DNA of 64,000 bases, from positions 124,001 to 188,000 of the forward strand of contig JAFGFE010000014.1 in the NCBI GenBank assembly GCA_016931225.1, written 5' to 3'. The position numbers were made by a program, and so were the translations under genes. Of this stretch, positions 2,019 through 14,308 are shown one piece after another. Position 1 is the first letter of the stretch, and every line of letters starts with the position of its first letter. This stretch comes from Candidatus Zymogenaceae bacterium (GTDB lineage: Bacteria > Desulfobacterota > Zymogenia > Zymogenales > Zymogenaceae). The notes under the pieces were generated by a model. The model had not been told where the DNA came from. It ran no database searches and worked only from the letters and a program-made list of their open reading frames with translations.

Positions 2019-2049
2019 ATCGCCCGGATCGCATCCGGGCGATTTTTTT
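2019..2049 (+). terminator. Rho-independent terminator after the secreted protein gene
   Basis: Eleven-base-pair stem (ATCGCCCGGAT and its complement) with a CGC loop, then seven T residues. Confidence 0.9.
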
Positions 2050-2377: not shown

Positions 2378-3886
2378 ATGAGTGGTTTTGTCGTAGGCTT
2401 CGGTACACCGGAACAAGACACCGTTCTGTCCGCTCACGAGCTCATCAGGCATCGCGGCACCCATGTTTCCGGGTGGTATAAAAAGGGCCGTGTTGTGATG
2501 GCGCAGAACTATCTGAAAGCGGATATTCCGGACGATGTCCCGCACACCATCGTACCCGTATGGAGGATTGGAGAAGAAGGCCTGCGGATTTGCTATGACG
2601 GACAGATTACGCGTCGAGACGATTTGCCGACGGGACCCGTTCCTTCGGAGGAGCATGCCGTGCTCGAGTGTTACGCACGATTTGGCGTTGATATGCTTCA
2701 ATACCTCACCGACGCGGTATTCGCATTCGTCATATCCGACGGTCGGGATTTTTTCGCCGCCAGGGACCTCCTCGGGATAAAGACCCTCTTCTACGGAAGA
2801 GAGAACGACACGCTTTATCTTGCATCCGAGTTGAAGAGCATCACGCACATTACCGACGACGTGTATGAATTTCCCGCCGGGCATTATCTCACGGGCGACG
2901 GTGAATTTGTTCGATTCTCGAAACTTCCATCGGCTCCGGACACATATCCACCCGGAAACATCGAACAGGTAGCCGGTGACATACGATCTATTTTGAGAGA
3001 GAGTATGCGTGCGCGAGTCGATTTCTCCCGGCCCACCGCCGGTCTGTTGAGCGGGGGGATTGACAGCAGCGTTATCTGTGCTTTAGCGTGCGAATTGATC
3101 GGGGAACGGGTAGACCACGGATGCAGGCTGAAGACATTTTCACTGGGCGTGGGGGAATCGGAGGACATCACCTGCGCCAGAACGGTTGCGGAATACCTGG
3201 GAACGGAACATCATGAAGTCATCGTGGACCTTGATGAGCTGCTGGGAGTGTTGCCGGATGTTATCTACTATCTGGAACATTTTGATCCCTCCCTGGTGAG
3301 AAGCGCCGTCTCTAATTTCCTCATATCACGGGCGGCGAAAGAGAACGGAATCGAGGTGCTGCTCTCCGGCGAGGGGGGCGATGAAATATTCTGCGGCTAC
3401 AGTCACATGAGGTCTATGGATTCTCACCGACTCTCCGCCGGGCAGAGGGATGTCCTCGGGCTGTTGCATCATAACGCCGCCCTGCGCCTTGATCGCATGA
3501 ATCAATGTCATTCCATCAAGGTCGTCGCGCCGTTGATATCCGGTGAACTCCTGAACTATTCTCTGACGTCCATTGCGCCGGAGTATAAAATCAAGCACGT
3601 GCACGGTGAAGCAATCGAAAAATGGATATTCAGAAAGGCGTTTGAAGAATCATTACCGACGGATATTGTCTGGAGGGTCAAGCAGGAGTTTTCCCAGGGA
3701 TCGGGATCGGCGGCGTTGTTGACGGATCACTTCGAAAAGACGATCGGTGACGAGGAGTTTCTCTGTGCGAAACAAGTATACTCGATCCTCCGGAGCAAGG
3801 AGGAGCTTCATTATTTCAAAATATTCATCTCCCTTTTCGGAAGTGGTCGAGCGGTTGATACAGCCGGTCAATGGTTGAGCGTGTGA
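2378..3886 (+). CDS. Asparagine synthase-related protein with Ser replacing the glutaminase Cys
   Basis: 502 residues if started at the ATG at 2378, which has AAAGGAG 10 nt upstream; an in-frame upstream ATG at 2318 lacks such a site. The N-terminal third has the class II glutaminase fold pattern, but the protein starts M-S-G-F where AsnB starts M-C-G, so the catalytic cysteine is Ser2. The synthetase domain is intact: PP-loop SGGIDSS at 225-231 and SGEGGDEIFCGY from 330. Family knowledge: AsnB forms Asn from Asp with ATP and glutamine-derived ammonia; relatives without the cysteine (beta-lactam synthetase, lasso-peptide cyclases) adenylate other carboxylates or use free ammonia. No precursor peptide, RRE or protease gene is visible next to it, so the substrate is unknown. 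Confidence 0.85.
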   Translation: MSGFVVGFGTPEQDTVLSAHELIRHRGTHVSGWYKKGRVVMAQNYLKADIPDDVPHTIVPVWRIGEEGLRICYDGQITRRDDLPTGPVPSEEHAVLECYARFGVDMLQYLTDAVFAFVISDGRDFFAARDLLGIKTLFYGRENDTLYLASELKSITHITDDVYEFPAGHYLTGDGEFVRFSKLPSAPDTYPPGNIEQVAGDIRSILRESMRARVDFSRPTAGLLSGGIDSSVICALACELIGERVDHGCRLKTFSLGVGESEDITCARTVAEYLGTEHHEVIVDLDELLGVLPDVIYYLEHFDPSLVRSAVSNFLISRAAKENGIEVLLSGEGGDEIFCGYSHMRSMDSHRLSAGQRDVLGLLHHNAALRLDRMNQCHSIKVVAPLISGELLNYSLTSIAPEYKIKHVHGEAIEKWIFRKAFEESLPTDIVWRVKQEFSQGSGSAALLTDHFEKTIGDEEFLCAKQVYSILRSKEELHYFKIFISLFGSGRAVDTAGQWLSV

Positions 3887-5882: not shown

Positions 5883-6512
5883 TCACGTCTTATATGTGAT
5901 GGTGAAGACACATTCATCGTCACCGACAAAACGACACTTCGTTTCCTGAACTTCTGACTGAATTTCCTTTTTAAAACACTCTCCGACGCCTTTCATGACC
6001 CCGGTCATAAAGGCACAGGACGGCTTTGTGAATTCTTTTCGTTTTTTCTCATCCTTGATGAGTTCTTCGCACTCGGTGCAATCGGGCCGATGGATCAAGA
6101 ACTGGTTTTTGTCCGGGATAGACTCCAAGACCTCTTCCGGATCGTACCCGGCATTCGTTATATACGCCGTGTACGCAATCTTGAGTTTTTCGACACTGTC
6201 CATCTTCGCGGCGATGAGGTTTCGTATGGCTTCTGAGTGTTCCACCACCATTTTGATCATGAACATTCCCGCCCTGAACATGATCGCCTCATATCCGCTG
6301 TTGCCGATGATATCCCGGACACCGATGTAGAGTTTTGTAACCGACTCGTACTCGACCCTTTTTTCCGTATCATAATCGGGAGGACTGGTTATCATGTCGT
6401 CCAGTTTGGCGAAACGGAGCACCGAGTTTTTCCCGTTTTCTCCCAGGATGTCTTCCAGTGAATCGAGTAATGACCTGTACGCGAGGTGTGTGAGTGAATC
6501 TTTCTGGCTCAT
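5883..6512 (-). CDS. V4R-domain protein (4-vinyl reductase/heme-NO-binding-like fold)
   Basis: 209 residues with the ribosome site GGAGCGGC before the ATG. The C-terminal half has the V4R signature: GVMKGVGECF, then SEVQETKC, then GDDECVFTI at the end, with conserved Cys residues. V4R domains bind small ligands (hydrocarbons, tetrapyrrole intermediates) or zinc and often sit in regulators. The N-terminal 100 residues are helical and not recognised. The gene is solitary with its own promoter at 6560-6588. Role inferred: small-molecule sensing. There is no DNA-binding or catalytic output domain. Confidence 0.75.
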   Translation of the reverse strand: MSQKDSLTHLAYRSLLDSLEDILGENGKNSVLRFAKLDDMITSPPDYDTEKRVEYESVTKLYIGVRDIIGNSGYEAIMFRAGMFMIKMVVEHSEAIRNLIAAKMDSVEKLKIAYTAYITNAGYDPEEVLESIPDKNQFLIHRPDCTECEELIKDEKKRKEFTKPSCAFMTGVMKGVGECFKKEIQSEVQETKCRFVGDDECVFTITYKT

Positions 6513-13153: not shown

Positions 13154-14308
13154 ATGAAAAAAATGAACACTCCGACCTCTCCGTCCAGCGGCATGGTCAT
13201 CCATGAGGTAGGAAGGGTGCACAACAGAGTGAAAAAGCCCTTTCTGGTAGCGGGAGACGACGGCATCGAGTTGCAGGGTAACGTGGATGCCATCAGGCGC
13301 CGGGTCCACCGAACGGGGGATGATATGTCGGAGATTATTATCGATGAGGAAATGATCGATATCCTTCATGGCATCGAAGAATATTCTCATCTGGTCATCC
13401 TCTATTGGGCGCACATGGTGCCGGAGTCGAGCCGCACGCTGAAACAGGTGCATCCGATGGGGAGGGCGGATTTTCCGCTGATGGGGATATTTTCCACCTG
13501 CAGCCCGGCCCGCCCCAATCCGATTTTGACCACCGTCGTCCGGCAGCACGAGAGGAGGGGAAACGTCCTCACGGTGTCCGGGCTTGACGCGGTGGACGGA
13601 AGCCCCGTTTTGGATATCAAACCGTTTGTTGGGGAGTTTTACCGCCAGCAAGACGTCCGCATCCCCGAGTGGATGCGAAAGATCGTAGATGAGATGAGAG
13701 AAGATATGAACAGCACTGAAAAAGGCCGACATGAAACAGCCCATGGTCAAGGTGGGTGCAGACGGGGCAAAAGCAGCTTCAACATGCACGATCCGGCTCT
13801 CGTGTTCGGGGAACTGAAGCTCAAGGCGGGCGATGTCTTCCTCGACCTCGGCTGTGGGTCGGGGGAGTACTCTCTGCACGCGGCGGGGCTGATCGGGGAG
13901 GAGGGGGTTGTCTATGCGCTGGATAGATCGGAATCCCACATTACCGGCCTGAAGAGCCGTGCCGACGAGGAGAGTATCGAAAATATAACGGCGGCGGCCG
14001 CGGATATCACCGGGCAGCTGCCAATCGACGACGCGTATGTGGATGTCTGTCTGTTGGCGACCGTTCTTCACATCCCGGATATCACACGAAGGGCGAAAGA
14101 TCTGTGCACGGAGATACGCCGTGTTCTGAAGCCGGACGGTCGGCTGGCGGTCATCGAGTGCCATAAAAAGGCCCTCCCCTTCGGGCCGCCGGAGCATATT
14201 CGCCTGTTTCCCGCGGAGGTCAAGGGATTGATAACACAATGCGGTTTCACGGTCGTAAGCGAGGTCGATCTCGGGTACAATTACATGATTCAGTTCGGGG
14301 TGGAATAA
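13154..14308 (+). CDS. Fusion of a TrmO-like (TsaA/UPF0066) domain and a class I SAM methyltransferase
   Basis: 384 residues. Residues 14-165 match the TrmO beta-barrel family: EVGRVHN at the start, YSHLVILYWAH at 77-87, the ARPNPI signature at 119-124, and GLDAVDGSPVLDIKP at 143-157. TrmO N6-methylates t6A37 in tRNA using SAM bound by a non-Rossmann fold. Residues 215-384 form a separate Rossmann methyltransferase with motif I DLGCGSG at 231-237, ALDRSE and VLKPDGRLAVIE. A charged linker of about 40 residues joins them. Two SAM-using folds in one chain suggest sequential or coupled methylation, or a redirected TrmO domain. There is no stop or frameshift between the halves. Confidence 0.85.
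   Translation: MKKMNTPTSPSSGMVIHEVGRVHNRVKKPFLVAGDDGIELQGNVDAIRRRVHRTGDDMSEIIIDEEMIDILHGIEEYSHLVILYWAHMVPESSRTLKQVHPMGRADFPLMGIFSTCSPARPNPILTTVVRQHERRGNVLTVSGLDAVDGSPVLDIKPFVGEFYRQQDVRIPEWMRKIVDEMREDMNSTEKGRHETAHGQGGCRRGKSSFNMHDPALVFGELKLKAGDVFLDLGCGSGEYSLHAAGLIGEEGVVYALDRSESHITGLKSRADEESIENITAAAADITGQLPIDDAYVDVCLLATVLHIPDITRRAKDLCTEIRRVLKPDGRLAVIECHKKALPFGPPEHIRLFPAEVKGLITQCGFTVVSEVDLGYNYMIQFGVE

Follow-up and report, generated by a model that had tools for sequence, protein, structure and literature searches.

Asparagine synthetase B (AsnB; PDB codes 1ct9 and 6gq3) is the closest described enzyme to the protein considered here, which is encoded at positions 2378–3886 (+) of the window, meaning the whole 64,000-nucleotide stretch of Candidatus Zymogenaceae DNA that was analyzed. 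The two have in common the two-domain fold, the PP-loop, the acid cluster and the equivalents of Arg387 and Lys449. In the human enzyme (ASNS), according to the excerpted text of PMC6748925 and PMC11615228, Asp-367 binds the amino group of β-aspartyl-AMP and Glu-364 reaches the carboxylate via water, while Arg-403 contacts the carboxylate (by simulation) and Lys-466 the phosphate. The excerpts of PMC6748925 further describe the cognate pocket positions as the hydrogen-bond network of glutamine, place Asp-400 (Asp384 of AsnB) in the pocket that receives an inhibitor's amino group and term Glu-414 (Glu398 of AsnB), at most 5 Å from the glutamine pocket, absolutely conserved. The equivalence of numbering between AsnB, ASNS and the window protein is derived from printed alignments.

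The AsnB fold is also found in β-lactam synthetase (BLS, 1jgt) and carbapenam synthetase (CarA, 1q15), and a related synthetase domain is present in the lasso peptide cyclases. Both BLS and CarA are encoded in antibiotic gene clusters, have lost the glutaminase nucleophile, act on intramolecular substrates and possess a Tyr-Glu catalytic dyad. A reading made from the DNA without database searches (the sequence-only reading) had counted all of these enzymes as kin of the window protein, which is not supported, as AsnB is nearer by both sequence and fold. The window protein scores 174.5 bits against AsnB (1ct9), 58.7 against BLS and 46.9 against CarA, and the structural Z scores of its model are 44.9, 34.6 and 30.0, correspondingly. 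It remains far under the cut-off of the lasso cyclase model NF033535 (95.4 vs. 525 bits). Where BLS reads TGYGAD in the printed alignment, the clade described below keeps the SGEGxDE acid cluster that binds the aspartate amino group. The window protein is also below the cut-offs for asparagine synthases, with 329 bits vs. 499 for the NCBIfam AsnB model NF006949 and 219.2 vs. 267.1 for the general model TIGR01536.

Relatives of the window protein adjoin MttB-, MtgA- and MtgC-like genes, as in the MtgABC glycine-betaine system, although the window copy itself lies in no such operon. MttB-type enzymes break down betaines in the absence of oxygen and thereby feed the turnover of methane and carbon in sediments; to our knowledge, these pathways have been described only in part. 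The setting of an AsnB-like synthetase beside MttB-type genes is what is new here. Searches of open-access literature joining asparagine synthase or synthetase with MttB or related words showed no paper on such an operon, and the main text of two papers on the MtgABC system (PMC12478193, PMC9768040) contains neither the word asparagine nor amidotransferase.

The frame at 2378–3886, supported by Pfam and by relatives, starts with an ATG at 2378, ends with a stop codon at 3884–3886 and encodes 502 residues. A ribosome-binding-site-like AAAGGAG is read in the sequence 10 nucleotides 5' of the ATG (2361–2367, +). A strong terminator-like hairpin of 11 pairs followed by six T is present 5' of the gene at 2019–2043 (+). 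The protein begins M-S-G-F, and the AGT codon at 2381–2383 (+) puts Ser2 in place of the nucleophile Cys of class II amidotransferases, as the sequence-only reading had noticed. It also held the PP-loop and the acid cluster to be intact, which is the case for both SGGIDSS (residues 225–231, 3050–3070, +; ATP pyrophosphatase) and SGEGGDE (residues 330–336, 3365–3385, +; synthetase site). An M-C start was looked for and is absent, also from the longer frame that begins at TTG 2318 (522 residues). The Pfam family Asn_synthase matches with 191.3 bits, and GATase_7 matches only partially, with 38.8 bits over residues 93–156. The AlphaFold model (pLDDT 88.7, pTM 0.89) superimposes on AsnB with an rmsd of 2.1 over 473 residues at 29% identity, aligned between residues 2 and 500.

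The loss of the cysteine is shared by a clade of relatives. Among 30 proteins with readable N-termini, the window protein counted, 28 carry Ser as the second residue, whereas L115 carries Gly and L121 Ala. As Ser, Gly and Ala fill this column across the clade and Cys is found in 0/30, Ser2 is not a chance change, and a sequencing error, which the sequence-only reading had named as a possible cause, is ruled out. A single-protein query of the named genomes gave no matches; with the alignment A1 as the query, 25 close relatives (L108–L132, 48–61% identity) were found among the best 80 of 534. In a sample of 395 genomes of the phylum, nine others have relatives at 52–61% identity (split or partial in two cases); below these, proteins at 33–42% identity include one more Ser protein (G033) and Cys proteins.

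The counts of residues given here refer to 30 Ser-type rows: the window protein, six loci of the phylum sample and 23 named loci, the last being 49–57% identical to the window protein. Left out were L066, which has the same protein start as L119 and was taken as the same, L009/L071 with a split frame, and L045/L128 and L132 without an N-terminus. By the names in the records, with MAG binning taken as is, L108–L132 belong mostly to Desulfobacterales and other deltaproteobacterial records; the remainder are MAGs of Dehalococcoidia and spirochaetes, one MAG each under the names Pirellulaceae and Nitrospiraceae, and a single named strain, Desulfoferrobacter suflitae DRH4 (L116).

The Ser-type proteins form a distinct clade, separate from canonical AsnB. 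The trees were calculated from the C-domain columns only, with the N-terminal columns excluded, and are quick trees with no bootstrap. In the C-domain tree the 30 Ser-type rows lie on one side of a branch with an SH-aLRT of 100, and the 21 canonical AsnB rows form another group, also with 100. The window protein therefore does not cluster inside canonical AsnB, the outcome that the sequence-only reading had listed against itself. The clade signature Y45, D49, D74, A367, V383 and S388 is present in 30/30 proteins, including that of the window.

The Cys-type AsnB homologues found in MttB operons, such as L100 and the first of the two copies in L116, have a similar neighborhood and likewise carry Leu in place of Thr323 (22/22). 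They differ from the Ser-type proteins in their full glutaminase site (22/22), in Asn at position 384 (22/22) and in the retention of Glu398 and Arg400. Their identity to the window protein is 33–38%, and L100 and L116, with 607.6 and 570.6 bits, exceed the AsnB cut-off of 499. They are not a supported clade, with a support of 42 in one tree and two changes in another. A second Cys-less group, of the Ala type (L196, L204, L207, L209), takes the same operon slot as the Cys-type copies. This slot lies between two MttB-like genes; Arg49 is replaced by Glu and Arg325 mostly by Ser. Three Ala-type rows have no letter at the nucleophile column, namely L200, which has no readable N-terminus, and L205 and L206, for which the start was placed too far downstream and the frames of which read L-A-S-I. 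One state change covers the 43 Cys-less and 43 Cys rows on the C-domain tree, at a point where long branches meet, the G033 protein being one of several long branches in the tree. As one change suffices, several independent losses of the glutaminase within MttB operons are not shown.

The N-terminal domain of the window protein (residues 1–190, 2378–2947, +) has the Ntn/glutaminase fold, and its pocket is no longer glutaminase-like. Relative to E. coli AsnB, the clade has Tyr for Arg49 and Asp for Val53, each in 30/30, which are the ends of the segment Y45 to D49 (2510–2524, +). Asn74-Gly75-Glu76 is replaced by D74-G75-Q76 (2597–2605, +), with Asp and Gly in 30/30 and Gln in 29/30, and the position of Asp98 is taken by E91 (2648–2650, +), with Glu in 28 proteins and Asp in two. 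At the five positions R49, N74, G75, E76 and D98 the window protein reads Y, D, G, Q and E, the Gly alone being kept, and the original set is preserved throughout the 21 canonical AsnB and 22 Cys-type relatives. Asn74 is the oxyanion-hole residue of AsnB. With the nucleophile and most of the pocket replaced, the glutaminase of the window protein and its clade is very probably dead, which upholds the loss proposed from the sequence.

The reshaped pocket is itself conserved. The six pocket positions are matched in conservation by just 22 of 100,000 random sets of N-domain columns, a figure that serves as a guide and not as a test, since Gly75, one of the set, is kept by nearly every group and the rows are related to one another. 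The dN/dS of the N-domain is 0.05–0.24 in seven of eight pairs of close relatives, with dS near saturation in two of the eight, and 0.50 in the remaining pair, which comes from a genus without the operon. In seven of the eight pairs it is higher than that of the C-domain, and the mean column identity is 0.66 for the N-domain vs. 0.76 for the C-domain. The N-domain is so under selection, if less than the C-domain. Its faster evolution leaves room for a weakly constrained structural remnant.

In the synthetase half the PP-loop (Ser225 and Asp229 in 30/30), the acid cluster (E332, D335 and E336 in 30/30) and the equivalents of Glu348, Asp351, Glu352, Arg325, Arg387 and Lys449 are present in all 30 proteins. 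The equivalent of the essential Lys449 is K435 (3680–3682, +) and that of Arg387 is R370. Other residues are changed in 30/30, namely Thr322 to Ser, Thr323 to Leu, Asp384 to Ala, Arg400 to Val and Asp405 to Ser, and Glu398 is replaced by Arg in 28/30 and by Lys in 2/30. The equivalents of Asp384, Glu398, Arg400 and Asp405 are replaced within the segment formed by A367, R370 and K381–S388 (3476–3541, +), where A367, R370, V383 and S388 are each found in 30/30, and position 381 is Arg in 28 and Lys in two. Position 384 is Asp in 21/21 canonical AsnB, Asn in 22/22 Cys-type proteins and Ala or Gly in 46/46 rows of the Cys-less groups, three of which have no letter at the nucleophile column. Its change in every Cys-less row suggests that the acid or amine handled is probably different in the whole of this group.

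The neighborhood of the relatives points to methyl transfer. In G386, G211, G369, G112, G110 and G372 the synthetase gene is the last of a methyl-transfer gene set, which in full comprises a MetH-type activation protein of family PF02965, MttB1, a methyl-THF:corrinoid methyltransferase that matches NF005719 with 310.6 bits (cut-off 259), another MttB, a corrinoid protein and a 420-residue SAM-methyltransferase. Family assignments come from scans of the G110 copies and were extended to the other genomes by similarity; G211 and G369 have truncated contigs here. Among the 25 named loci, drawn from the best 80 of 534, MttB is present in 19 (weak matches counted, such as 27% in L108 and 35% in L109) and the SAM-methyltransferase in 19. 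At least one of MttB, the corrinoid protein and that SAM-methyltransferase is found in 22/25, so that the conserved neighbors to which the sequence-only reading had looked for further evidence do exist. The three loci without any are L118, on a contig of 4.4 kb, and L128 and L132, whose contigs end within the gene and show no match in the 10 kb on the other side. As a control, MttB was found in 0/25 other AsnB loci (within the available flank, E 1e-8), which are 25 of the 55 lower-ranked among the best 80 of 534 and of which L183 and L184 are also Cys-less. Three Bacillota loci with M-S-G starts have no MttB nearby.

The SAM-methyltransferase occurs in 11 of the 395 phylum genomes, in 10 of the 11 with an AsnB homologue in the same cluster; seven of these homologues are Ser-type, the divergent G033 protein being one, and three are Cys-type. 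MttB is found at 11/16 Cys-type loci of the phylum, once 8 kb away, at 4/10 loci of the Ala-type group and, among named Cys-type loci, at L135, with none at L133 and L156. Of the whole set, the spirochaete and planctomycete MAG contigs L127, L130 and L123 hold only the Ser-type AsnB, MttB1, MttB2 and the SAM-methyltransferase; those of L127 and L130 are only about 7 kb long.

SAM synthetase and S-adenosylhomocysteine hydrolase genes adjoin the set in L116 and L114 (by Pfam for L116) and also lie beside Cys-type copies in L098 and L197. Cys-type copies stand in tandem with Ser- or Ala-bearing ones in L116 and L121. In the former (D. suflitae, L116:8386–14256) the Cys-type and Ser-type AsnB genes are followed by those of SAM synthetase and S-adenosylhomocysteine hydrolase. 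Since the two types share the operon position and occur in tandem, the operon does not depend on a lost glutaminase. The MttB1 of L116 matches the solved structure 9yce of glycine betaine methyltransferase with 269.5 bits, which does not settle its substrate, as the trimethylamine methyltransferase 7xcl scores nearly alike (262.2). The SAM-methyltransferase has no PDB match by sequence; the best 50 structural matches listed lie close together, with Z scores of 15.8–17.5, and include N-methyltransferases.

The link to MttB operons is shown for the relatives, and the window copy stands alone. The surrounding 16 kb showed no MttB, corrinoid-protein or SAM-methyltransferase gene; in the rest of its genome MttB occurs on two further contigs only, and a SAM-methyltransferase of this kind is absent. 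The window protein departs from the clade at four of 112 otherwise invariant columns, none of which is a pocket or catalytic position, and therefore looks functional. In one genus (G108, G041, G163) the synthetase gene is present without the methyltransferase and with no MttB match. The gene of G041 is split between two frames, that of G163 is a fragment, and the dN/dS between G108 and G041 is 0.43–0.50, on few changes. This suggests that loss of the operon may be followed by decay of the gene, with assembly errors possible in these three MAG-like assemblies, of which G163 is 73% complete. Elsewhere in the window, a 209-residue protein at 5883–6512 (-) has a C-terminal V4R domain (31.5 bits, cut-off 31), and a single frame at 13154–14308 (+) carries a TrmO N-terminal domain together with a SAM-methyltransferase domain.

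We propose, with a probability of roughly 0.6, that the window protein and its clade are AMP-forming amide synthetases of the AsnB fold that have lost the glutaminase, are fed by free ammonia or an amine, and have been recruited to quaternary-amine metabolism. The C-terminal domain, judging by its retained residues, would bind ATP and activate a carboxylate as an acyl-adenylate. The attacking nitrogen would not be released from glutamine in situ and may instead come from free ammonia or an amine. The N-domain, kept under purifying selection, may act as a reshaped non-hydrolytic module with a structural or ligand-binding role. As most relatives adjoin MttB-type demethylases, usually together with a corrinoid protein, a methyl-THF methyltransferase and a dedicated SAM-dependent methyltransferase, the substrate probably belongs to the quaternary-amine pathway and could be an amino acid or a betaine.

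In a more specific and rather doubtful version of this proposal, the old glutamine pocket would have been rebuilt as a site for a methylated amine, and the product would be a new kind of metabolite, a methylated or amine-bearing amide of an aspartate- or betaine-like acid, made by cells living on quaternary amines. The pocket region of the clade has gained two tyrosines and several acids (Y45, Y73, D49, D74, E91, E92), a make-up that would suit a cage for quaternary ammonium, and where AsnB has a facing interface Glu the clade has Arg or Lys in 30/30. The recurring unit of an AsnB-like synthetase, two MttB and a SAM-methyltransferase, found in records labeled as sulfate-reducer lineages, Dehalococcoidia, spirochaetes and others, suggests amide chemistry at a step that has yet to be described. 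The operon is available in a named strain, D. suflitae DRH4, and a glutaminase pocket that was replaced and then fixed again offers a way to test what becomes of dead amidotransferase domains.

A plain ammonia-dependent asparagine synthetase that supplies the cell with asparagine is an unlikely alternative in view of the changes T322S, T323L, D384A, R400V and D405S in 30/30, the scores under both the AsnB and asn_synth cut-offs and the operon setting of the relatives. The residues that serve ATP, the amino group of aspartate and the adenylate (E332, D335, R370, K435) are kept, and the window genome has an asparaginyl-tRNA synthetase and no match to AsnA, all of which would fit such a role. However, the same genome contains two other AsnB homologues, both with Cys and both over the asn_synth cut-off (453.7 and 460.3 bits). 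The window copy could also be a relic of an acquired operon that no longer matters to the cell. It is solitary, has the longest end branch of the clade (0.66) and lacks a close match in three genomes of the same family (best E 4.2e-17, 2.9e-15 and none). Its intact frame, its good ribosome-binding site and the few changes at invariant columns make this improbable. The G+C content, 0.52–0.55 across the gene vs. 0.43–0.55 elsewhere in the first 12 kb of the window, gives no clear signal of horizontal gain there.

Amidation of a betaine-type carboxylate for demethylation by MttB, with later removal of the amide by a nitrilase, draws on nitrilase-family genes in clusters that contain AsnB and MttB (L072, L105, L106, L191, L196, L207, L209 and, more weakly, L194). 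Those clusters hold Cys-type or Ala-type copies or, in L072, the divergent G033 protein, and a nitrilase match is found in 0/25 named Ser-type loci (E 1e-8), so that this scheme has a low probability for the clade. The sequence-only reading had also raised natural-product tailoring, with an intramolecular amide formed as by β-lactam synthetase or a lasso cyclase. The same nucleophile is lost and the fold is common to BLS and CarA, but AsnB is nearer, the acid cluster differs from that of BLS, and the 11 scanned neighbors in L063, L068 and L072 belong to methyl-transfer, transport, regulator, nitrilase and mutase families, with no antibiotic or lasso family among them. The neighbors of the relatives point instead to quaternary-amine methyl transfer, and tailoring is very unlikely. 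Least probable of all is that Ser2, exposed by removal of Met1, serves as an Ntn nucleophile on another amide. Ser is found in 28/30 proteins and the pocket is conserved; yet Asn74 is changed to Asp in 30/30, and an active serine nucleophile is rejected for the clade because L115 has Gly and L121 has Ala at the same place.

Other AsnB-like proteins outside the clade depart from the canonical enzyme as well. L134, L142 and L152 are Bacillota proteins with M-S-G starts in which the glutamine pocket is lost; L134 lies near a glycine-betaine-type ABC transporter, and L142 and L152, by eye, near genes resembling NADH-dehydrogenase or hydrogenase subunits. L013, L014 and L015 (from G040, G026 and G013) encode single-domain AsnB-like proteins of ~310 residues without a glutaminase domain. 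The neighbors of L014 comprise CobD/CbiB, an aminotransferase, a diphthamide-synthase-like PP-loop protein and a periplasmic binding protein, resembling a cobalamin cluster, and the surroundings of L013 and L015 are similar by eye.
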